Shown here: in pieces, positions 1,777 to 63,450 of the stretch
Position numbering within the stretch: position 1 is the first letter of the stretch
Layout of the letters: each line of letters starts with the position of its first letter
Origin: a virus
DNA length: 64,000 nucleotides
IMG/VR virus record: IMGVR_UViG_3300042114_000045
Location: 1 to 64,000 of that record
Reading direction: 5' to 3' (one strand)
Notes under the pieces: generated by a model
What the model saw: only the letters and a program-made list of their open reading frames with translations
Told to the model about the DNA's origin: nothing
Database searches by the model: none
Translations under genes and position numbers: made by a program

Positions 1777-4700
1777 TAACAATCCTTAAATGAGTTTACT
1801 ACGTTTGTTCTTATCTGTTTAAAGTTTTTTAACACAAACTTTTTAATATTATCTGATAGATCACTATCTTCAATATACGTATTTAATTCAGTAATTATAT
1901 CATAGTTATCTTTAGTATCTGCTTTTTTAGCTGTACCTACTTCAACAGCTCTATCTAATTTCTCTAACGCTTTTTCTATGATAGACACTTCATTTTCAAC
2001 GTTATCTGTAGCAAATACACCAAATCTTCCTTCAGGTAATGTTCCTGTCCAATTTTCGTCGGTATTGGAGTTATACCCAGTCATATCATCAGATATATAG
2101 TATTGTTTCATAACTATAGGAGTTCTAGCTAGTTGTCTTCTATCATCGTGCGTATTTCTCAATATCTGTAATACATCACTTGGTTTTACAATAGTTTTAT
2201 CATTACCTATAATTCTATTGAAGTTATTACTAACCATTTCAGCCAAATATGAATCAGCATCGATAGTACTAAATACATCAGGATTTCTACCGATAGTATT
2301 CAATAGTCTACCAACTGCTTCACCCAAACTACTATGATTCATATTTAACTCATAAAATGATTTATTCATTTGGTTGATTTGTTTATTATTCAACTCACTG
2401 TTTACACCAAGTACCAACGCATCAAATATATTTAATGTTTTAGTAGTGTGAGCATCAACCATTGTACTACCATCTAAACTATGCTTATCAGTAACTCCAA
2501 TAGCTCCAACGTTAGAAATAACCTCTTTTATTATTCTGTTAATGTTAGATATATTAGCTCTACTTTTATTAGATTGAAATTGGTTACCACCTATAACGAC
2601 TTGAATCGTATCTTCGGTATTTTCATTTTGTGTTTTGTAATAGTCTTGTAACCCACCTAATGAATTAGTTGCTGCGTAATAACTACCTTCGTCAATCATC
2701 TCTTTCAATATATCCGTAAGTTTATCGTCTGTAACACCACCTAGTTTTGAACTATTGTTGAATGCTACTAATTTATCTTCTAATATTTTCTTAAACGCAA
2801 CAAAGTTTAGTTCCTCAACTACTTTGTGTGCTATTCTAAACTTGTTAATATCATTAAAACTATCGTCGAATGCTTCTTCTAATTGATTACCAATAGCAAT
2901 AGTAACAGCTGAACCTACGATTTCTAGTTGCCCTTCTGATAGAAAGTATTTAGTTGAACCTTTGCTAGCAGGGACAAGTTTTAACTTATCTGTTTTTTGA
3001 TCATACTCATATGCTACTAAGTTTCTCTCGTTAAGTAATACGAATGCTTTATTTATAACTTCTTTATGACTATCATTAGTAGAATTAACACTACCTAATA
3101 GCTCTTTTAATTTATCAATCTTACCAGTCATTATTGCTTCTTTTGCTAGGTTGTATCCTGCAACTTGTTTTATATTTCTTACACTTGATCCGTAGATAAA
3201 CACCATTACTAAAGGTTTTAGAAACGTTCTCCATTTACCACCAATAATACTCTCAACTAAAACAGACATATCAGTAGCTTCGTTGCTTGCACTTAAAGCA
3301 TCAATAAAAGCTTCTTTAGGAGTTTCGTATATATCTTGTTTCCCACTATCTTTAAACTTACCATGAGACATATCTGAAGTTGCATTTTCTCCAACATACA
3401 TACCGGCTTTTTCATATAAGTAACTTGAAGTCCTACTTAATCCCATCTGTAATAACGTAGATGCCATACCATTTGTTATACCGTCAGCCTCTAACGCTAA
3501 GTTTGTAGTAAACTCTTCACCAACAGTCATAGCATATACCGCTTCTAGTGCTTGATGGATATGCATTATATTTTTTGCTGTACCTTCAATATGACTATCA
3601 CTTTGATTATCTACAGCATTTCTAAGATCGTATAGAGATACTGGTTTTACTTCACCTGTTACTTTATCAACCATCAATGCTTTTAAATAGTCACCTAATT
3701 CAGTTGCAACTTTTCCGTTCTCATCGATAGTAAATTTAACGTACTTCTCTAAATCTTTAATTACTTTCTCATCTAACTTTTTATCTGGTCCGAGCTCTAA
3801 AGCTTGAGCGATAGCTAGTTGCATATGTAGTAAATCACCTTCTGTCATATTAGAAGGATTAATAGTGTAGTTCATATCGTCAAGACTAACTATAAATCTT
3901 GATAGCTTACTGTTCTGAGGATTAATCCAAGAGTTATCAATCATACTTCTATTACTTACAGTATAATCCCATTTTAAAAAGAAATCTTTATCTTTAACTA
4001 AAGAGTACGTATCTAGCATTCTATCAATATCTAATGCATCAGCTGTATATGCAGCTTTAGTTTTTTCAAACTCTAAAGGGTGTACACTACTTAACATTGT
4101 AGTTCTACCACCAAGTAAAATCTGTTTAAATTCATACTTAACAGCATTATCAATAGCTTCTAGTAACGCATCTTCTCTGTCCTCTTTTGAGTCAAAGTTT
4201 TTGTCAGCTAATGATGTAGCAGCTTTTTTTGTCGCAATTTTAAGTACATCTTCATACTGTTTTTTGAAGTCACTACTAAATTTCCAAACCATCTTACCTT
4301 GTGCATTTAAGTAGTCTACAGCTTTTTTAGCGATACCGACCATACTATTTCTAGTAGTTGAATCATCTTTTCTATCTTTTATAGGACTAGTATCTATAGT
4401 AGCTTCTTTATCTTCAGCGGCAAACTCAAATACACCACCCATATTTGATATAGCACCATCTGAAACTTCGTAGTTTGTAATAGTACCGACACCAAAGCTT
4501 AGTATTTTAGTTACACGAGAGTTTCTTGCACCATCAGCACTCTCATTAGTTATAGCACCTGTACTAGAGTCACGTACTAATACTTCTCTAACAATACCAT
4601 TATTGTTTGCACTTCTTGTTGCAGTTAACGCGTTGTAGATAACCAGTTCACCTAATGCAAGTTGTGTATCAAGAACATACTGACCTGTAACATCTCCAAA

Positions 4701-29569: not shown

Positions 29570-31627
29570 TTAAGCCTTGTTGGCTTTTAGTTGTGCTTCT
29601 TTATTCTTCTGAATAAGCTCTGCTATCTTAACCTGCAGATCATGTGCTCGCATATCAGCAGCTTCTTGTGCTTTATGTCCAGCAAGTACTTCTTCGTGGT
29701 CATGATCTACGGCTTTCATCTCAATATTCTGTCTATGAGTTTGTTCAGCCCTTTGCATTTCTTCATGCATCTGTATACCTTGATCACTTTTAAGGAAATC
29801 AAGATCAAGTCTATCAGCTTCACTGCCAAGTTTTCTAGCTTTAGCAGCTTCAACTTCAGCTTTTTGTGTTTTAAGTTGCATATCAATTTTGTTTTCGTTA
29901 GCTCTAGCTTTTAAGTCTTCTATTGTAGCTTGTAAAACAGCATTCTCTAACGTAGCTTTTTGAAGTGCTAGTTGTTTCATTTGTTCAGCAGCAGGATCTG
30001 GTTGAGGTTGGTACGTTCTTAATTTCATTGCTTGTTCTGGCATTCTCATTAATTCCATTATCTGAGCCATTATTTCTTTTCTAATTGCAGGATCTTCGTT
30101 CGGACCTACGGTTTGCAATAGGAAACTTAACTCCTGACTCTTAGCCGCATTATCTTCAGCGGTACTAATCTCGATATCAATATCAATGTTACCAGTTAAG
30201 TCATCTTTTCTAATAGCTACGAATTCTTCGTTAGTAACCCTGATAACTTCTTCTTCACTTAGAAACTCAGCATTGTACGCCATCCATTTTCTCATTAAAG
30301 GTTTAATAGCATTTTCTGCTATGTTTCTAACTAAGTTCATTCTTCTCGTAGCTGTTGCGTCTAAGGCACCTCTAGCACCCGTAGCTGTTCCACCTAAACT
30401 GTTACCTGTAATACCACCACTGAAACTTTTAACACCAGTTAAACTCTCTATTTCATTGTTCATAAGACCAAGTACATCAAATGCACTATTAGGCAGTACA
30501 TTAAATTGTCCAAACCAGAAATCATTTGGTGTTCCATTAAATTCAAAGTTTTGTCCACCTACCCATTTCTTTCTATTAACCGCATCAAGAGCACCTTTTC
30601 TAACACCTACTTGTCCATTATTGCTTTGAGCCATATTATCAATAAGTCCTCTAATAATAGCCGTCTTAACTTTTTGACTGTCACCAATCATTTCAGCATT
30701 AGACTCACCATGCAATTGAAATGGTACACTACTAAATGGTGCAACAATAAATGGGGGTTTCTTATCAGGATAAGGATTACTTTGCAGTCTAATTATAGTA
30801 TCACCAACCCAAGCACATACAATAGCTTCAGCGATACCATCATTATTAACATCGTAGTTACCCCAATACTCATACACAACTATTTTCTTTCTTGGATCAT
30901 CTCTAAACCTAAATACAGTTGTATCTTGTGGTCTATAGGTTGTATCTCTTTTATCGAGTGATTGTGCAAGTTTATCAAGGTTCTTATATCTTCCATCTTG
31001 TCTAAGTGTACTCATATCAGTTTCATATCTATGAATAACGAATTGACTCTTATCTAAATCATCCATACAAGTAGGGTCTAGATAAATGTCTTCATTTCTA
31101 CATATCTTAGCAGTAGGTCTATTTCTTAAAATCTTTAGTTCAGTAGATTTCTCTGTAACTACGGTTTCTCTTCCATCAGGTCCCATAATAACTGTTTCAA
31201 CATCAACATCAATTTCTTGATCTTCATAATCCCAACCAGTTTGAATAATAGCGGTACCTTCAGTACTCATAATTTTAACTAACCTAGTAACAAAATTATA
31301 TCTATCAAACTGTCTACAGAATTGAGTATTAAGTAACAACTCACTTTGTCTAGCTGATTTAGCATCTTCAAATGTAACAGGTAAAGCTTTAACTATGTTA
31401 CTACTACTTACAAATGGATCAACTAGTGTAGCGTGTTGCCACTCTCTTTGTCTCTTTATATCTCGTGATACTATTGACGATTTACCTTTTACCTCATTAC
31501 CATATGGATCTCCGTTATCTTCACGTTTCCATGAAAGTATCTGTGAATCCCATTCTCTTTTTAGTATTTCAGCACTCTTTAAATCTGCTTTTAGTGTTGC
31601 CAATAACGTAGTTTTATCTATCTTCAT
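29570..31627 (-). CDS. Portal protein
   Basis: 685 residues, the length expected for podovirus/N4-type portals. The order is typical: N-terminal KREWDSQILSWKRE, a central domain around YWGNYDVNNDGIAEAIVCAWVGD and IVAPFSSVPFQLHGES, then GITGNSLGGTATGARGALDA, and a long charged helical C-terminus (residues about 560-680, Glu/Lys/Gln/Ala) that would form the barrel inside the head. The portal ring is the DNA-entry vertex to which the terminase and tail attach. A TAGGATAATTA-type site precedes the ATG. Confidence 0.88.
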   Translation of the reverse strand: MKIDKTTLLATLKADLKSAEILKREWDSQILSWKREDNGDPYGNEVKGKSSIVSRDIKRQREWQHATLVDPFVSSSNIVKALPVTFEDAKSARQSELLLNTQFCRQFDRYNFVTRLVKIMSTEGTAIIQTGWDYEDQEIDVDVETVIMGPDGRETVVTEKSTELKILRNRPTAKICRNEDIYLDPTCMDDLDKSQFVIHRYETDMSTLRQDGRYKNLDKLAQSLDKRDTTYRPQDTTVFRFRDDPRKKIVVYEYWGNYDVNNDGIAEAIVCAWVGDTIIRLQSNPYPDKKPPFIVAPFSSVPFQLHGESNAEMIGDSQKVKTAIIRGLIDNMAQSNNGQVGVRKGALDAVNRKKWVGGQNFEFNGTPNDFWFGQFNVLPNSAFDVLGLMNNEIESLTGVKSFSGGITGNSLGGTATGARGALDATATRRMNLVRNIAENAIKPLMRKWMAYNAEFLSEEEVIRVTNEEFVAIRKDDLTGNIDIDIEISTAEDNAAKSQELSFLLQTVGPNEDPAIRKEIMAQIMELMRMPEQAMKLRTYQPQPDPAAEQMKQLALQKATLENAVLQATIEDLKARANENKIDMQLKTQKAEVEAAKARKLGSEADRLDLDFLKSDQGIQMHEEMQRAEQTHRQNIEMKAVDHDHEEVLAGHKAQEAADMRAHDLQVKIAELIQKNKEAQLKANKA

Positions 31628-31745: not shown

Positions 31746-32159
31746 CTATACTCCTAATTCAAAATGTGGGTAATCTTTCATCTTCCAATCACCACCATAG
31801 ACTATCTTAACACCTACGGTTTCAGCAGCTTTCTTTACTACTTTAGCCATCTCTAAAAACCTATTAATATTATTCCAATCAATAGGGAACGGTGCGATGT
31901 CTATAGCTTTAGAAGGGTTAAAATTATGGTTACTAACTTTTTTTGTACCATCTTTATCTGTTACAGTAGCACCAGTCTTTTTCCACTCTTTACCTACTAA
32001 AGTTCTACCTTTTTTGAATAGTTCAAATTGCTCTGCAGGAGTTCTATATCCAAATAGAATAGTAAAATCATAATGCTTTATAGCCTCGTTCATAACTTTC
32101 TGTATATCAGGATGACAAGTACGTAGTCTGTCTAAACTAACTTTACCAAAACTAGGCAT
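31746..32159 (-). CDS. Endolysin, M15 (VanY/L-Ala-D-Glu peptidase type)
   Basis: 137 residues, the single-domain size of M15C phage endolysins. The zinc ligands are in place: H78 and D87 (HNFNPSKAIDIA) and H132 (YPHFEL), with FGYRTPAEQFELF at 36-48 as the conserved N-terminal motif. It cuts the peptide stem of peptidoglycan. There is no signal peptide, so it needs a holin. AAGGA lies seven bases before the ATG, inside the overlap with the upstream gene. Confidence 0.9.
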   Translation of the reverse strand: MPSFGKVSLDRLRTCHPDIQKVMNEAIKHYDFTILFGYRTPAEQFELFKKGRTLVGKEWKKTGATVTDKDGTKKVSNHNFNPSKAIDIAPFPIDWNNINRFLEMAKVVKKAAETVGVKIVYGGDWKMKDYPHFELGV

Positions 32160-32394
32160 GTGTAAGTCCTTGTATAATATTAGAAACTACTTCTTTACCT
32201 ACTTTACTACCATCAATATCTTCACCGAATCTATTACCATTACTTTCAGCAACATCTTTTAGTAAAGCAATAGCTAATTCATTATCAATTGATACCCCAC
32301 TAGTTTCAACTAATTTTCTCGTACCTTTTTTCAGTAACGCTTTAAACGTTTCGCTACTCATCACCATAAATAATATATTTACCAGTATACCCAT
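32152..32394 (-). CDS. Small membrane-tethered lysis-cassette protein
   Basis: About 80 residues. The ATG at 32,394 (MGILVNILFMVMSS) has AAAGGATATAAA upstream and is preferred over the ATG 21 bases earlier. The first 12 residues are hydrophobic, the rest helical and charged. It overlaps the endolysin start by 8 bases. A role in lysis control or as part of the holin system is likely by position only. Confidence 0.6.
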   Translation of the reverse strand: MGILVNILFMVMSSETFKALLKKGTRKLVETSGVSIDNELAIALLKDVAESNGNRFGEDIDGSKVGKEVVSNIIQGLTHA

Positions 32395-32404
32395 TTTATA
32401 TCCT

Positions 32405-32530
32405 TTAACACGCATCTCTATACGTTAACAGAACAGTACGTAGATCATCTACTAACTTTATTGCATCTTCCCATCTATTAGCTACTATAGCTACGTAAAG
32501 GTCTTTGCATAAGTCCATACATTTATACAT
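32405..32530 (-). CDS. Small protein of 41 residues in the lysis cassette
   Basis: MYKCMDLCKDLYVAIV onward, helical, four cysteines at residues 4, 8 and the C-terminus region. TAGGATAG provides a ribosome binding site before the ATG. It fills the gap between the holin-like gene and the 80-residue gene without overlaps. Unknown function. Confidence 0.5.
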   Translation of the reverse strand: MYKCMDLCKDLYVAIVANRWEDAIKLVDDLRTVLLTYRDAC

Positions 32531-32531
32531 T

Positions 32532-32798
32532 CTATCCTACTAATTGTTGTAACGCTAACCCAATAGCACTCATTATAACACCAGTTATAATACCACTTAT
32601 TGCCCCACTAAACTTAGCACTATTCTCTGCAGTATGTGTAAGTTCTGACTTCAAAGTTGTAACATCAATAGTCATTGAAGCTAATTTTGTATCAAACTTT
32701 TGAACATCTTTCTCAACTTGGTCAAGTCTATACAAAATTAATCTACTATCACCATTGTCATGACTACTTCTTCTATCTGGACCTACGAATTCACTCAT
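32532..32798 (-). CDS. Holin-like protein, XhlA type
   Basis: 88 residues. Residues 22-58 form a coiled coil (LILYRLDQVEKDVQKFDTK onward) and residues 63-86 one membrane segment (SGAISGIITGVIMSAIGLAL). This coiled-coil plus C-terminal membrane layout is that of haemolysin XhlA-type lysis proteins. Within two bases of the PAS gene stop. Confidence 0.7.
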   Translation of the reverse strand: MSEFVGPDRRSSHDNGDSRLILYRLDQVEKDVQKFDTKLASMTIDVTTLKSELTHTAENSAKFSGAISGIITGVIMSAIGLALQQLVG

Positions 32799-32800
32799 GA

Positions 32801-33469
32801 TTACTCCTCTTTACCACTAAATTTGAATTTATTAAATATACCTGCTGTTATCATTGGACACTTAGCTCCAATACATTCATTAGCTATATATGCATTAATG
32901 TACTCAGTAAGGTCTCTACCACTACCAACTACTCCAATTAACTCACCCTCAAAAAACACAGGAGCTTTAAATACTTCAAGGTGCATCATTTCACCTTTAA
33001 CTTTTCCTTCTTCTAAAAATCTACCATCATCTTTTGTAAATGAGCCATCTTTAGTTTTATTAATAACTACTACGTCGCTATTATCACAAACTTCACCGAA
33101 TGTATGATTATCAGCACCAAATCTTTCTTTAGCAGCCAACGCCATTGTAACATCATTTTTACCAATAGGATCTCTATCAAATAGCAACCCATCTCTTATA
33201 GCTTTATTTGCATATAGATAATTACCTTCTAAGTCTTTCATCCATAACATATCAGGGAGAACTTCCATCATTGCTTCCATTATAGCTTCTTGTCTCTGAA
33301 CTTTGGATTCCCAAAAAGCTCTCTCCTGCTTCAACTCTTCCTTTATTGCTTTAGCAATACCGTGCAACTCTTCCATACTATTTATTAGCCTATCTAACGA
33401 GGGAGTTTCCGTACTAGCTACGCATTTACCCTTTAACCAATTATATGCATTATCTACTATTCCACTCAT
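32801..33469 (-). CDS. PAS-domain protein in the lysis cassette
   Basis: 222 residues. After a short N-terminal helix and a coiled-coil linker (residues 38-68) comes a PAS fold: VLPDMLWMKDLEGNYLYANKA (70-90), PIGKND (101-106), EVFKAPVFFEGELIGVVGSGRDLTE (165-189). This exact style (LPDMLWMKDLEGNYLYAN, F-GE-C-NSD) is familiar from PAS domains of Campylobacterota sensor proteins. There is no kinase, GGDEF or HD-GYP output domain. The C-terminal tail carries Cys199 and Cys204. Probably taken from a host sensor protein; it could sense redox state, metabolite or ligand and gate lysis, which is speculation. GGAG-type site before the ATG. Confidence 0.75.
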   Translation of the reverse strand: MSGIVDNAYNWLKGKCVASTETPSLDRLINSMEELHGIAKAIKEELKQERAFWESKVQRQEAIMEAMMEVLPDMLWMKDLEGNYLYANKAIRDGLLFDRDPIGKNDVTMALAAKERFGADNHTFGEVCDNSDVVVINKTKDGSFTKDDGRFLEEGKVKGEMMHLEVFKAPVFFEGELIGVVGSGRDLTEYINAYIANECIGAKCPMITAGIFNKFKFSGKEE

Positions 33470-33518: not shown

Positions 33519-33540
33519 GTACGCCTTACACGGCGTACTA
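33519..33540 (-). terminator. Hairpin at the end of the kelch-like gene
   Basis: Perfect 8-bp stem AGTACGCC/GGCGTACT with a 6-base loop, starting within the stop codon of the upstream gene and followed by AAAGCTACATTATG without a strong U-run. A Rho-independent or processing hairpin between fibre island and lysis cassette. Confidence 0.45.
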
Positions 33541-34968
33541 ACTATCTATAAGTGCACAACGAACAAACGCTGGACTTGAATGTAGTATAATATAGTAAAA
33601 GTCGATACCGTCCGGACTCGTTAGAATACAACTCTTGTCCCCAACTACTGCTGTACTATTAGGGTATAACCATTGGTACAATTTAGGTACTAAAGTGTTT
33701 CTATATGGTACACCTTCATAAATTCTCATAGTATTATCTTTTTGTATAAATAAACTTCCTTGTTTACCATTAAATCCTCTAGCAGCAACCGTAGTACCAG
33801 TAGTAAATGTTTCAGTGCTAGGATAATAAGTCTCAGTAGCCCAAGTATTCGCTACTAGATCATATATATAGACACTAGATGTTGCCCCACCTCTTAAACA
33901 CCAAAGCTTATCTGGACTATATGCAGGTAACCATTTTAAAGCTCCACCTAGGCCAACACCACCAGGTGCAGCTGCTATAGCAGGATTTCCACTATTAGCA
34001 CTAGTTGTTGCCCAAGCGTTAGCACCTATGTTATACCTATAAACAACAGTAGCATTACTACCAACCAAGTACATATTTCCATAGTACCCAGCAGTAGCAG
34101 CACTTGGAATACCAACTCTTAATGGAGCTACTGTTAATGATGTAGCAGAAGCAGCAGCCGCAGCCGTTAAAACTGCATACTTATCTACTTCAATTATTGA
34201 GTTAGCTGGTATACCTTTCTGTAGTGGATATATAGTCAATGTAGTTGCACTAGCAGCACTATCAGCACTTAAACAGAGTTCACAACCGTTATAGCACTGT
34301 AATATCGTACCAGCCTTCATAGCTTCAGTAGCACCAGTAACGGTTAAACTTGTAGTACCTCTAGCTGCAGCAGCAGTTATAGTAATATCATATTTACCAA
34401 ATCTTAATATTGTACCAGACACTAATGCTTCAGGCAGTGCAGTAACCGATACAGTTGTAGCTCCAGCAGCAGCCAAAGCACTTGTAGTTATAGTTCTTGT
34501 AACACCAGAATGATATGCAGTTTCATAATTATTTCTAGGTACACTAGGGTACATTAGATAACAATCAGTTGCAAATGTAGCTGGAATACCAGTTGTACCT
34601 AAGTTAGCAGCCCAAGTATTAGTAGCAACATTATATTTATAAAAATAACATATTGTAGCATTACCTACGAATAAATAAATAGAACCAAATACTTGTCCGC
34701 TAAATTGTCCACCAACTACTTTTGTATACATCATATTAGCAACTGTTCCTGTTTGTGTAGGAGGTGTTGCTAATTGTTGCCAGCAATCAAACCAAGTACA
34801 GTATCTCCAAAACTGTGCAGCAGTTGCAGAAGTTTGTATGTAGTAATATATGTATCTTTTATCATCATCTACGAAGTTTGATCCGGCTATACCGGTAGCA
34901 GGTGCAAAACTAAGTTGCTCCCACATCGGTCTATCGATCATCGGTCTATTATTATTAGTTATCGCCAT
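33538..34968 (-). CDS. Kelch-like fibre protein with inserted beta-repeats
   Basis: 476 residues. Kelch-style blades are seen near residues 50-70, 100-130, 310-325 and 365-380 (YNVATNTWAANLG, YNIGANAWATTSA, YDLVANTWATE). Residues about 165-290 hold four copies of an Ala/Thr-rich beta unit (GATTVSV, GTTSLTV, SATTLTI, SATSLTV). Kelch propellers in phages usually bind receptors or sit on fibre trunks. Start inside the end of the 52-residue gene. AAGG-poor region upstream; GATAA-ATG context. Confidence 0.65.
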   Translation of the reverse strand: MAITNNNRPMIDRPMWEQLSFAPATGIAGSNFVDDDKRYIYYYIQTSATAAQFWRYCTWFDCWQQLATPPTQTGTVANMMYTKVVGGQFSGQVFGSIYLFVGNATICYFYKYNVATNTWAANLGTTGIPATFATDCYLMYPSVPRNNYETAYHSGVTRTITTSALAAAGATTVSVTALPEALVSGTILRFGKYDITITAAAARGTTSLTVTGATEAMKAGTILQCYNGCELCLSADSAASATTLTIYPLQKGIPANSIIEVDKYAVLTAAAAASATSLTVAPLRVGIPSAATAGYYGNMYLVGSNATVVYRYNIGANAWATTSANSGNPAIAAAPGGVGLGGALKWLPAYSPDKLWCLRGGATSSVYIYDLVANTWATETYYPSTETFTTGTTVAARGFNGKQGSLFIQKDNTMRIYEGVPYRNTLVPKLYQWLYPNSTAVVGDKSCILTSPDGIDFYYIILHSSPAFVRCALIDS

Positions 34969-39864: not shown

Positions 39865-41769
39865 TTAAGTAGCGTATCCTTGTATCTCAACCGTCTCAAC
39901 TCGTACTTCCCAGTAGATAACTTCTGTACCACCACTAGCACACTCAACTTTCAAACCTCCAAGAGTTGTATCTGCACTTATAGCTAAACTACAAGGCAAA
40001 GTACCACCTAGTACAGTAACAGTGTTACCAACTATAGTAGTGGATGCAACATCAGCTCCTATAACCAAAATACCTTTAACCTCAAAAGCTTTAACATTAG
40101 CTTCGGTAGTATCTGATCCAGCCTGTTTAGCTAACACGGTTAGTCTATACGTCGCAGCAGAGCTGAAAACAGCTAAGGAAAATATATTTTTACTACCAAC
40201 GTTAATATTAGGACTTCCAGCATCAGCAGTAGCCACTACTGCAGTCGTACTGGTACTTCTAGCTCTTAACAACACAGTCGTAGTTTGCATAGGGGTAACA
40301 CAACTATTATGGTAGTTACCACTAGAATGAGATATACTTCCTATAGTACTAGCAGCAGTACTCCTACCAATAGCTGTAGAAGCATAACCGCTAGCGATAG
40401 TATTGATACCCATAGCCGTAGAATTACATCCAGTAGCACAAGTATTATAACCAATAGCTGTAGAGTAATTTCCAATAGCTGTAACGCATGTACCTAACGC
40501 AATTGAACCTTCAGCACAAGCGCAACTAACGTAACCTATAGCAATAGCACCAGCACCATTAGAGATAGTACCACCACCTCCAATAGCCAAACCATACATA
40601 CATGATACTGCGTTGGTACCGATTGCTATTGAGTAATCGCCTGCCGTAATGGATGAACCGAGTGCTATACTAGAAACCCCAGCTATTGTGGTGTTACCCA
40701 TAGCTATACCAAAATCACCAGTTCTAGTATGCGCCCCTGCTGTAAAAGAGTAACAACCTACAGCACCATAGTAACACGTTGCTGTAGAACTAAAACTTAA
40801 ATCTACTGACGAGGTACCAATAGTACCGTAGTTATTAGGATTAACTGCTCTATAGTAAGTACCATATCCTGAATTAATTACGCATAAGCCTGGAGTTCCA
40901 CCACTTGTAGGTATAGCCCAGCTAGCTAACCCATTAGTATCTGATACCAGTACCTTACCTGCTCCTTGAGTTCCGTCTATTATCTTAATCTGTTTAGTAC
41001 AAGTCATACCATTACAGTCTATGGAAAAATGAACATTATAGTCATCTGTTATATTATACTTACTATCAGTACCATATCCAACTGCAAATATCTTATTAGA
41101 TGTACATCCAATTTGTGTACCGCTACCAAACGCCGAGCTCTTACATCCCCTATTAATAACATCATATCCTGTACTAAACGACATATCACCAACAGAACAT
41201 GAGTTATACCCAATAGCTATAGAGCTAAACCCTATAGCCTTTGTACCACTACCAAAAGCAGAAGAATAATTACCAACTGCTGAAGTATAAGCACCAGTAG
41301 CAAACGATGCAATACCAGAACCGTAGTTTTGAATACCAATTGCTGTTGCGAAACATCCTGTCACTTGGTGTTGACACCCAATAGCAGTAGAATAGCAGTT
41401 ATTAACAAAATTGCAGAAACCTATGGCAGTAGAGTACGCACAAAGTGATCTATTGCACAAACCAAATGCTATGGAATAGTCGCCACTTGAAATTGAACAA
41501 ATACCGAAATTTACAGAACCTTTACCTGGAGTTGGGTATGAATTGTTATTTGTATCTAGTGTATGTATACTACTGCTATTTAATATAAAGGCGCTATCAG
41601 TATGTAAGTTACCTAGTACAATAGTTTTACTAGATTTTCCTGCTGAAGGCAGTAAATCCACAGTATTACAAGAAATTTGTTTACCAGATACTTCGTATAA
41701 ACAACTAGTTGTAGCTGCACTATACAATGAGTCATACCTACCAAAACTTTCCTCAATACCGTAATTCAT
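39865..41769 (-). CDS. Large YadA-head-like tail fibre, Cys-rich
   Basis: 634 residues, about 26 cysteines. Two blocks of 14-residue YadA-head-type repeats (about residues 85-205 and 340-460: STAIGFCNFVNNCY, SIALGSSITAGDY, STAIGYNTCATGCN), separated by the KIFAVGYG…DDYNVHFSIDC…DGTQGAGKVL module shared with the 440-residue fibre. The end (about 500-634) is a beta domain. The protein is very likely a trimeric adhesin-type fibre. ATGA overlap with the upstream gene. Confidence 0.75.
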   Translation of the reverse strand: MNYGIEESFGRYDSLYSAATTSCLYEVSGKQISCNTVDLLPSAGKSSKTIVLGNLHTDSAFILNSSSIHTLDTNNNSYPTPGKGSVNFGICSISSGDYSIAFGLCNRSLCAYSTAIGFCNFVNNCYSTAIGCQHQVTGCFATAIGIQNYGSGIASFATGAYTSAVGNYSSAFGSGTKAIGFSSIAIGYNSCSVGDMSFSTGYDVINRGCKSSAFGSGTQIGCTSNKIFAVGYGTDSKYNITDDYNVHFSIDCNGMTCTKQIKIIDGTQGAGKVLVSDTNGLASWAIPTSGGTPGLCVINSGYGTYYRAVNPNNYGTIGTSSVDLSFSSTATCYYGAVGCYSFTAGAHTRTGDFGIAMGNTTIAGVSSIALGSSITAGDYSIAIGTNAVSCMYGLAIGGGGTISNGAGAIAIGYVSCACAEGSIALGTCVTAIGNYSTAIGYNTCATGCNSTAMGINTIASGYASTAIGRSTAASTIGSISHSSGNYHNSCVTPMQTTTVLLRARSTSTTAVVATADAGSPNINVGSKNIFSLAVFSSAATYRLTVLAKQAGSDTTEANVKAFEVKGILVIGADVASTTIVGNTVTVLGGTLPCSLAISADTTLGGLKVECASGGTEVIYWEVRVETVEIQGYAT

Positions 41770-50801: not shown

Positions 50802-50875
50802 TGGTTCGGATATAGAGAATCGAACTCTAACCTCAGCTTCCCAAAAGCCGTGTGCTACCATAACACTTTATCCAA
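50802..50875 (-). tRNA. tRNA-Pro (UGG)
   Basis: Cloverleaf with acceptor TTGGATA/TATCCGA, anticodon loop TTTGGGA, T-loop TTCGATT and encoded CCA. Last gene of the ten-tRNA minus-strand cluster; spacing to tRNA-Phe is only three bases. Confidence 0.9.
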
Positions 50876-50878
50876 ATA

Positions 50879-50954
50879 TGGTGCTACCAACAGGGATCGA
50901 ACCTGTGACACTAGGATTTTCAATCCTATGCTCTACCATCTGAGCTACAATAGC
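50879..50954 (-). tRNA. tRNA-Phe (GAA)
   Basis: Acceptor GCTATTG/TGGTAGC, D-arm with GATGGTA, anticodon loop TTGAAAA, T-loop TTCGATC and encoded CCA. Confidence 0.92.
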
Positions 50955-50955
50955 A

Positions 50956-51032
50956 TGGTGGAATATATCGGATTCGAACCGATCACCTCTAGCGTGCAAA
51001 GCTAGCGCTCTACCAAAATGAGCTAATACCCC
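50956..51032 (-). tRNA. tRNA-Ala (UGC)
   Basis: Acceptor GGGGTAT/ATATTCC, anticodon stem CTAGC/GCTAG with loop TTTGCAC, T-loop TTCGAAT and encoded CCA. Confidence 0.92.
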
Positions 51033-51042
51033 TTATAAAAAT

Positions 51043-51119
51043 TGGTTGTTCCATAAGGACTTGAACCTTAAACCTCTCGATTATCAACCGAACGCTCTGA
51101 CCAATTGAGCTATGGAACA
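51043..51119 (-). tRNA. tRNA-Ile (GAU)
   Basis: Perfect acceptor TGTTCCA/TGGAACA, anticodon loop TTGATAA, T-loop TTCAAGT, encoded CCA. Purine 34-36 is GAU, so it reads AUU/AUC. Confidence 0.92.
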
Positions 51120-51121
51120 TT

Positions 51122-51197
51122 TGGCACTCCTAATCGGATTCGAACCGATATGAGCTCCTGGAAAGGGAGCCATCCTAAACCATTAGATGATAGGAGC
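51122..51197 (-). tRNA. tRNA-Glu (UUC)
   Basis: Acceptor GCTCCTA/TAGGAGT, discriminator G, D-loop AATGGTTTA, anticodon loop CTTTCCA, T-loop TTCGAAT, encoded CCA. Confidence 0.92.
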
Positions 51198-51199
51198 AT

Positions 51200-51273
51200 T
51201 GGCTCTCTAGGTAGGTATCGAACCTACGACTTCCCTTTAACAGAGGGATGCTTGACCTTCAAGCTACTAGAGA
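51200..51273 (-). tRNA. tRNA-Asn (GUU)
   Basis: Acceptor TCTCTAG/CTAGAGA, anticodon stem TCCCT/AGGGA with loop CTGTTAA, discriminator G typical of Asn, encoded CCA. Confidence 0.9.
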
Positions 51274-51274
51274 A

Positions 51275-51351
51275 TGGGGTAATCGACGAGACTCGAACTC
51301 GCAACATTCAGGATCACAACCTGACGCCTCTACCATTGGGCTACGACTAAC
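51275..51351 (-). tRNA. tRNA-His (GUG)
   Basis: Anticodon loop TTGTGAT, T-loop TTCGAGT, encoded CCA and an extra G at -1 opposite C73, the His identity pair. Position 1 is T facing C72, a mismatch unusual for a functional acceptor. Confidence 0.85.
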
Positions 51352-51358
51352 ATAAATT

Positions 51359-51442
51359 TGGTGCGGAAGGAGAGACTCGAACTCTCACGCCTTTCAGCAC
51401 TGGTTTCTAAGACCAGATTGGCTACCATTACAACACTCCCGC
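51359..51442 (-). tRNA. tRNA-Leu (UAG)
   Basis: Class II tRNA: acceptor GCGGGAG/CTTCCGC, anticodon stem CTGGT/ACCAG with loop CTTAGAA, 13-base variable arm, T-loop TTCGAGT, encoded CCA. Confidence 0.9.
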
Positions 51443-51443
51443 A

Positions 51444-51517
51444 TGGATCGAGGACCAGGGTTCGAACCTGGATTCGCAACTTCAAAGGCTGCTGTCCTAC
51501 CATTAGACGATCCTCGA
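51444..51517 (-). tRNA. tRNA-Gln (UUG)
   Basis: Perfect acceptor TCGAGGA/TCCTCGA, anticodon loop CTTTGAA, T-loop TTCGAAC, encoded CCA, discriminator T. Confidence 0.9.
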
Positions 51518-51520
51518 ATA

Positions 51521-51596
51521 TGGAGCTCAATATCAGAATCGAACTGATTATCTCCTGGTTACAAATCAGGCGCTTCGCCAGCAAAGCTTATCAAGC
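51521..51596 (-). tRNA. tRNA-Thr (UGU)
   Basis: Acceptor GCTTGAT/ATTGAGC, D-arm GCTT/AAGC, anticodon loop TTTGTAA, T-loop TTCGATT, encoded CCA. First tRNA of the cluster, 14 bases after a strong terminator. Confidence 0.88.
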
Positions 51597-52928: not shown

Positions 52929-53325
52929 TAGTTACCAACTTTGCATCCTGTACACCATGTTTGATATACCTATTTTTACCGCTACTACTAACGTATTTTC
53001 TAACAACACCTTCCATATAAACCCTAACAAGTTTACCAGTTCCTATTAGCCCTAGCTTCTTTCTATCAGTACTACTCAGTAATACCCATACATGATCTAG
53101 ACCATCACCACGTATACTAACATTCTTTAACATAACAGTAGGATTTCTATAATCACCACCTCTTAACTCACCACTGAACTTAACCGTCATACCAACGTAA
53201 TGTTCTAAATGACTTCTATCAGCATCCTCAGTTATATTAACAGTCTTACTTTTTAGTTTATAGTGTGCATCCCTAACCGATTTTGGTGCACCTGCTAAGA
53301 TATGAGTGTTCCTATGTTTCTTCAT
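52915..53325 (-). CDS. OB-fold-like nucleic-acid-binding protein
   Basis: 136 residues. Residues 70-125 (LDHVWVLLSSTDRKKLGLIGTGKLVRVYMEGVVRKYVS) follow the DHVWV…G..V.F…V..Y pattern of small phage OB-fold proteins. N-terminus basic. Overlaps RepL by four bases (ATGA). Probably a ssDNA- or RNA-binding partner of replication. Confidence 0.6.
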   Translation of the reverse strand: MKKHRNTHILAGAPKSVRDAHYKLKSKTVNITEDADRSHLEHYVGMTVKFSGELRGGDYRNPTVMLKNVSIRGDGLDHVWVLLSSTDRKKLGLIGTGKLVRVYMEGVVRKYVSSSGKNRYIKHGVQDAKLVTNVDR

Positions 53326-53789
53326 ACAAGATTACCTCTTACACTTCTCATACCAGTCTCTTTATCATATACAATACTAAGATGTATGTTCTTATTCCGT
53401 AGTTCATTAATAGTCTTCCAATCACCTTTACCAAACAGATAAGGATTCAACATAAACGTACCAGTGTCTATTCTACTTATAATACCAGACTTTAATAGAT
53501 CTTGTAACCTATTATCTATAGTCTTAACACTAAATCCAGTAGCTTCAGATATTCGTCTCTTAAACACCGCAGTCAGACCTATCTCTTGTGTACCATATGT
53601 AACGTACTTCAACAACTCTTGTAACAAAGCACCAGCAGAAGCAGGTATATTATGCAGATAAGATATATCCTCTAGGTACAACTTAACATAATTAGGTTCT
53701 TCTCCTTTAAATCTTTTAACCACTGTGCTACTCTTAATCTCACCAGTAGTATAATCTATACTATCCGTAGTTTCTATTACTTTACCCAT
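53322..53789 (-). CDS. RepL-like replication initiator
   Basis: 155 residues. Residues about 60-120 are a winged helix (KRRISEATGFSVKTIDNRLQDLLKSGIISRIDTGTFMLNPYLFGKGDW), and the closing NPYLFGKGDWKTINELR matches RepL-type plasmid initiators. Iteron-like repeats lie at once upstream and one dyad overlaps its promoter, so autoregulation is likely. AAGGAATATAG before the ATG. Confidence 0.75.
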   Translation of the reverse strand: MGKVIETTDSIDYTTGEIKSSTVVKRFKGEEPNYVKLYLEDISYLHNIPASAGALLQELLKYVTYGTQEIGLTAVFKRRISEATGFSVKTIDNRLQDLLKSGIISRIDTGTFMLNPYLFGKGDWKTINELRNKNIHLSIVYDKETGMRSVRGNLV

Positions 53790-63370: not shown

Positions 63371-63450
63371 ATATAGCTATAGTTTAACTGGGTAAAACCG
63401 TCGACATTATGGAGGCAAGATATAGGTTCAAATCCTATTAGTTATGTCCA
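63371..63450 (+). tRNA. tRNA-like element H with odd anticodon arm
   Basis: Acceptor ATAGCTA/TAGTTAT (up to 9 bp), D-arm GTTT/AAAC with loop AACTGGGTA, T-arm ATAGG/CCTAT with loop TTCAAAT, CCA at 63,448-63,450. Length is standard. In the standard register the anticodon stem GTCGA/GAGGC has tandem G-A mismatches, the loop is CATTATG with A instead of U at 33, and 34-36 would be UUA (stop codon UAA). Confidence 0.55.

Follow-up and report, generated by a model that had tools for sequence, protein, structure and literature searches.

A PAS-domain protein paired with a single-pass membrane protein in phage lysis modules

The timing of phage lysis is usually seen as the work of an intrinsic holin clock, modified by superinfection or energy poisons. 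Among the described systems closest to the locus considered here, VqmA of vibriophage VP882 binds the host signal DPO and turns on the lytic programme via qtip transcription (PMC8284805), VqmA of Vibrio cholerae is redox-sensitive through cysteines (PMC7387800), and the VqmA family is treated in PMC12802170. The T4 antiholins RI and RIII, the latter cytoplasmic, adjust holin timing to outside conditions (PMC8385771, PMC7182436), and a protein with a single transmembrane (TM) helix is required for correct lysis timing in mycobacteriophages (PMC13056207), where the TM helix is N-terminal, the opposite of the layout described below. Here we describe a protein of 222 amino acids (aa) with a PAS sensor domain, encoded at positions 32801-33469 of a stretch of 64,000 nucleotides (hereafter the window), which comprises positions 1 to 64,000 of the 122,779-bp IMG/VR virus record IMGVR_UViG_3300042114_000045. 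The PAS protein and the small membrane protein encoded by the next gene form a unit that usually lies inside the lysis module, and this link is firm. The family is real and, as far as searched, undescribed (no paper on phage PAS proteins in lysis cassettes was found, most subscription journals lying outside the coverage of the search), and a function in lysis timing is tentatively put forward for it.

The PAS protein and its conserved residues

The Pfam profile PAS_4 (PF08448) matched the 222-aa protein with an E-value of 1.5e-7 and 32.1 bits (cut-off 23.1), and the PAS, PAS_9 and PAS_8 profiles matched it more weakly. An AlphaFold2 model computed from an alignment of 20 sequences reached a predicted local distance difference test score (pLDDT) of 84.7 and a predicted template modelling score (pTM) of 0.70, and its comparison with solved structures by Foldseek and a second structural alignment (best Z 11.8) returned mostly PAS-domain proteins in the top rows. 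The model comprises helices at residues 2-18 and 23-70, a PAS core at approximately 71-188 and a short helix at 204-213; the core is thus trailed by just 34 residues with one short helix, and an output domain is absent. The PAS domain is therefore genuine and without output domain, confirming what had been proposed from the sequence alone. The gene and its parts are as follows.

32801..33469, minus strand: whole gene of the PAS protein (ATG start, 222 aa; PAS_4 match, AlphaFold2 model and viral homologues)
33404..33469, minus strand: N-terminal helix, residues 1-22 (AlphaFold2 helix 2-18; hydrophobic moment)
33260..33403, minus strand: long helix, residues 23-70 (AlphaFold2)
32906..33259, minus strand: PAS core, residues 71-188 (motifs PDMxWxKD, HTFGExCxNSD, LEVxKxP and GxGRDxT; alignment)
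32804..32905, minus strand: C-terminal tail, residues 189-222 (KYEF-like motif, here KFKF at 214-217)

Homologues at 29-42% identity, together with ratios of non-synonymous to synonymous substitution rates (dN/dS) of 0.06-0.09 for the PAS gene, show that it is not a chance open reading frame (ORF); with values of 0 to 0.03 for the partner gene, both are under purifying selection. No TM helix was predicted in the PAS protein, which is therefore most likely cytosolic, and a Pfam scan returned no helix-turn-helix (HTH) family. In the model, the long helix at 23-70 is probably a coiled coil and dimerisation helix. The N-terminal helix, amphipathic in many homologues, could perhaps touch the membrane, as faintly hinted by its hydrophobic moment (0.55 in this protein; family mean over the first 30 residues 0.64 versus 0.56 in the coiled coil). 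A LOV photoreceptor was considered and rejected, the flavin motif NCRFLQ being absent by eye.

The family alignment contains a set of invariant or near-invariant positions (W76, K78, N88, H122, T123, G125, C128, D132, E153, K168 and the GxGRDxT motif), of which W76, K78, H122, T123, C128, D132, E153 and K168 are invariant in 20 phage PAS domains and nearly so in 37 cellular ones. This conservation of sensor residues argues that the protein may still read a signal. In all 20 phage proteins, position 214 is K, R or H, and 35 of the 37 cellular domains lack a residue aligned to K214; the phage-specific C-terminal KYEF motif to which it belongs may be a docking site.

The gene pair, its spread and its surroundings

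Neither the window protein nor two of its homologues matched anything in 50,697 GenBank phage records, and no sequence link of the PAS protein to isolated phages was found. Homologues were located near relatives of the portal gene and via a profile pattern, which yielded 20 distinct PAS copies, 19 of them spread over 18 viral contigs, counting the window, and one from contigs that are filed under candidate phyla and look viral; a second scan for further PAS phages returned solely contigs already known. Loci L113 and L114, assigned to genomes of Shapirobacteria and Falkowbacteria, have the cassette along with identical phage genes and are probably misbinned viral contigs. In 19 of the 20 copies, the next gene encodes a protein of 69-138 aa that combines a coiled-coil-like stretch with a single TM helix, its start lying between -19 and +12 nt relative to the PAS stop (2 nt past it in the window). 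One-TM genes of that size constitute ~12% of all genes in these loci, and the chance of such a fit in a dozen lineages is ~6e-12, a rough figure as the lineages are not independent. Because the pairing persists while endolysin and phage types vary, the unit is the PAS gene with its partner. Most PAS relatives sit in the lysis region, among endolysin, holin-like or spanin-like genes, and in 8 of the 20 copies the partner is followed by a protein of 41-64 aa that ends in cysteine; loci without PAS gave no significant match to the latter, with a search model built from the same members.

The partner in the window has a single hydrophobic segment near its C-terminus and a coiled coil called by eye, and in some relatives it extends in a tail past the TM helix. 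The sequence-only reading had termed it an XhlA-like holin candidate, a description that survives for the layout alone: the partner does have its coiled coil ahead of a single C-terminal TM helix and lies in a lysis module, but Pfam XhlA matched neither it nor ten homologues up to an E-value of 1 (short divergent proteins can escape such a search), so that membership of that family is unsupported. PHROG 1193, annotated 'hemolysin', matched the partners weakly (E 0.003-0.025; window partner 0.003), and no holin family matched the window partner.

The pair has been transferred as a unit between phage types. L103 (7506-8892) and L112 (7569-8955) share one block of 1,387 bp at 91.6% identity, which contains a small membrane protein, the PAS protein, the partner and the Cys-ended gene and ends at the stop of the last, and have just a 41-bp piece in common elsewhere; similarly, L113 and L110 share the PAS and partner genes at 75.8% and besides that only a 94-bp piece (flanks of ~16 kb compared, 8 kb for L113). 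Endolysins of the M15_4, M15_3, GH108, GH24 lysozyme and CHAP families stand beside the pair. The pair is retained in SU10-type phages, in contigs whose tail genes are of siphovirus type and in one that has a baseplate gene. An SU10-type portal occurs in each of records G000, G011, G012 and G013, and none was found for L098, L102 and L103, whose records may be fragments; a tape measure protein is encoded in L103, a J-type tail fibre protein in L102, a baseplate wedge protein in L099 and a DnaB-type helicase in L104.

In cellular genomes, the window protein alone as query gave no match and an alignment of the subfamily was needed. Of 298 genomes from the phylum to which a Sulfurimonas genome belongs, 17 were then seen to contain the same PAS subtype (E down to 2e-53). 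The closest cellular forms found are PAS-GGDEF-EAL proteins and histidine kinases of Campylobacterota (domains read from sequence), and cellular PAS of this subtype are domains within larger proteins of ~320-1800 aa. A tree of 57 PAS domains separated the phage clade from the cellular domains with support of 100/99, which is consistent with a single origin of the phage proteins, the tree being unrooted and of limited sampling. The nearest cellular PAS homologues, to which the sequence-only reading had looked for the host, suggest Campylobacterota, as do two genomes with SU10-type portals. L243 (5852-10563) is an SU10-type phage region in a Campylobacterota contig. Upstream of its portal lie a coiled-coil/TM gene and others that are holin-like and spanin-like, and no PAS gene was found in the region.

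In the window, the cassette genes are all on the minus strand and tightly packed in the order PAS, coiled-coil/one-TM, 41-aa, 87-aa and M15 endolysin, with the portal beyond. The genes around the PAS gene are the following.

32532..32798, minus strand: partner, 88-aa coiled-coil protein with one TM helix at about residues 65-83 (Kyte-Doolittle hydropathy of the hydrophobic segment 1.98)
32405..32530, minus strand: 41-aa protein ending in Cys, MYKCMDL...TYRDAC (homologues also follow the membrane partner)
32152..32415, minus strand: 87-aa protein overlapping both neighbours (ORF list)
31746..32159, minus strand: M15 peptidase endolysin, 137 aa (PF13539 5.5e-9; PHROG endolysin 2.6e-39)
29570..31627, minus strand: portal protein, SU10 type (PF23899 3.4e-137)
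33538..34968, minus strand: Kelch-like protein upstream, a probable tail protein (weak Kelch matches)

The two neighbours originally assigned to the PAS gene thus differ in distance, the coiled-coil/TM gene being immediately next to it and the M15 endolysin present but three genes downstream of the partner and 641 nt from the PAS gene. No true holin was identified in the window cassette, where the only hydrophobic stretch beyond the partner is the weak one at the N-terminus of the 87-aa protein, which by eye resembles a 71-aa protein in L079. The portal is 66% identical to that of Alteromonas phage AD45, and the position of the Kelch-like gene is occupied by tail-fibre-like genes in relatives. 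A promoter scan was uninformative (31 found versus 35 expected). Elsewhere, the window encodes a RepL-type plasmid replication protein at 53322-53789 (minus strand; PF05732, 2.6e-12), which is maybe a replication initiator or a hint of a phage-plasmid, a ten-tRNA array at 50802-51596 (minus strand), a doubtful tRNA at 63372-63450 whose anticodon has four bases, and a tail-fibre-like protein with YadA head repeats at 39865-41769 (minus strand; PF05658, 1.1e-8).

Lysis timing and rival explanations

As the PAS protein has no output domain of its own, the constancy of the gene pair and the start of the second gene close to, or overlapping, the PAS stop suggest that the membrane protein serves as its output. 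The location of this membrane protein, mostly among endolysin, holin-like or spanin-like genes, makes lysis timing the likely effect. We give an even chance to the reading that a cytosolic PAS sensor acts with its single-TM coiled-coil partner as a small transferable module tuning lysis timing. The PAS protein would dimerise via its long helix, and its pocket would read a small molecule or redox state that is also read by host PAS proteins of the same subtype; either the ligand-bound or the free form would hold or release the cytosolic coiled coil of the partner, which would then help or delay the holin. Contact between PAS protein and partner, ligand binding and an effect on lysis timing are what we infer here, and the earlier suggestion that lysis timing could depend on energy, oxygen or a metabolite is of the same kind. 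The 123-kb record yielded no integrase, which renders a lysogeny switch less likely and favours a role in timing. A more specific version, about which we are more doubtful than convinced, envisages a mobile cassette (PAS, one-TM coiled-coil and often the 41-aa Cys-ended gene) traded among unrelated phages, with lysis gated post-translationally by a host metabolite or redox cue through the same pocket as in the host's cyclic-di-GMP sensors and with no transcription step.

Several observations weigh against a sensor module for lysis. The membrane partners diverge strongly in sequence and have no confident match to a lysis family, and relatives without PAS also bear coiled-coil/TM genes by the portal, so that the PAS layer would be an optional addition. 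The sequence-only reading had named the same gene in relatives with no link to lysis genes as evidence to the contrary, and here the picture is mixed: most copies lie within the lysis region and all but one of the 20 have the partner, but in L104 the pair stands alone on the plus strand, opposite to its neighbours, with no lysis gene recognised by Pfam among ten neighbours (which include NUDIX and Band_7 proteins), and the extra PAS copy in L051 has no membrane partner and adjoins an overlapping pair resembling Rz/Rz1 spanins. The two copies in L051 are located at 595-1242 and 3646-4269, the first in order following the spanin-like pair.

The fixed pairing would also be expected if the PAS protein were a ligand-independent scaffold or antiholin-like clamp that dimerises and binds the partner, resembling T4 RIII in position and not in sequence. 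For such a protein, the phage-specific C-terminal motif would be a possible docking site, and PMC8385771 describes T4 lysis as regulated by antiholins including the cytoplasmic RIII; however, the eight residues invariant in the phage proteins exceed what a bare scaffold needs, and we hold this explanation to be unlikely. The solitary L104 pair on the strand opposite to its neighbours, along with the movement of the pair between phage types as a unit, would suit a moron in a permissive site by the lysis genes, with another membrane role, such as excluding superinfection or protecting the infected cell. This is quite unlikely, given that nearly all copies lie with lysis genes across different phage types and that no match emerged among the defence proteins of PADLOC-DB up to an E-value of 0.1. 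Interference with a host sensor, also raised from the sequence alone, would involve a decoy that associates with PAS proteins of the same subtype in the host (cyclic-di-GMP enzymes, histidine kinases) and upsets the signals they send, as the kinship with PAS-GGDEF-EAL and PAS-kinase proteins of Campylobacterota might suggest, but a decoy needs neither a late position in the lysis module nor a conserved pairing with a phage membrane protein, and the host of the phage is placed in Campylobacterota only tentatively; we consider this less likely than a role in lysis, and indeed very unlikely.

If the sensor module is real, scattered and unrelated environmental phages may time the killing of their hosts by a chemical signal. 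With a sensor domain tied to a membrane protein in the lysis modules of several phage types, two or three small genes would suffice to test directly whether the environment controls lysis, and the presence of the same PAS subtype in bacterial cyclic-di-GMP enzymes and kinases offers a hint, from the cell side, as to the ligand.

Comparison with known systems

The T4 antiholins RI and RIII are likened to the PAS protein by role, from published descriptions, as small phage proteins. To our knowledge, no PAS domain occurs in either of them. The likeness to XhlA-type accessory proteins concerns the coiled coil and C-terminal TM helix of the partner and its place in the lysis module, whereas the partners lack a match to Pfam XhlA. 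The GGDEF-EAL and histidine kinase proteins of Campylobacterota have the PAS subtype and conserved residues in common with the phage proteins, which differ in standing alone, in having their own N-terminal helix and C-terminal motif and in forming a separate clade.

An unconfirmed lead comes from Cellulophaga phages phi18:3 (gp090) and phi19:1 (gp108), whose BFVD models matched the PAS model in Foldseek (genes identified by length). Proteins of this type (phrog_10199/31932) include Ingeline_36 and phiSM gp11, and the genes of phi18:3, phi19:1, Nekkels and phiSM, representing at least three phage types, are located between tail-fibre or pectate lyase genes and an endolysin, while that of Ingeline_36 follows tail genes where no endolysin is named. 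Loci of these proteins near an endolysin, in different phage families, were observed at L226 39021-39620, L228 6203-6925, L237 3435-4037 and L238 3411-4046. The proteins seem to join a TM helix, a coiled coil and a PAS-like part in one chain, with no Pfam match, a weak profile comparison and an AlphaFold2 pLDDT of 37; if they do contain PAS domains, their fused layout would speak for the pairing of the PAS protein with its partner.

The closest parallel remains the DPO-binding quorum-sensing receptor VqmA of VP882 and V. cholerae, in which a phage PAS sensor is linked to host lysis. VqmA is the best solved match of the model (6ugl, Z 11.8, root-mean-square deviation 2.4, 27% identity over 112 residues; phage VqmA 7dwm, Z 10.2), a structural match that is a hint only, as the Z of several unrelated PAS domains comes within 1 of the best. 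It also provided the top PDB profile matches of the PAS protein, which are weak (E 0.009-0.02) and do not include the HTFGExCxNSD stretch. VqmA carries a C-terminal HTH DNA-binding domain, whereas the window protein has no HTH, its PAS domain is preceded by a long helix and its partner is a membrane protein. Because the HTH is missing, the window protein is not a VqmA; by analogy, it may serve a comparable purpose through contact rather than transcription.
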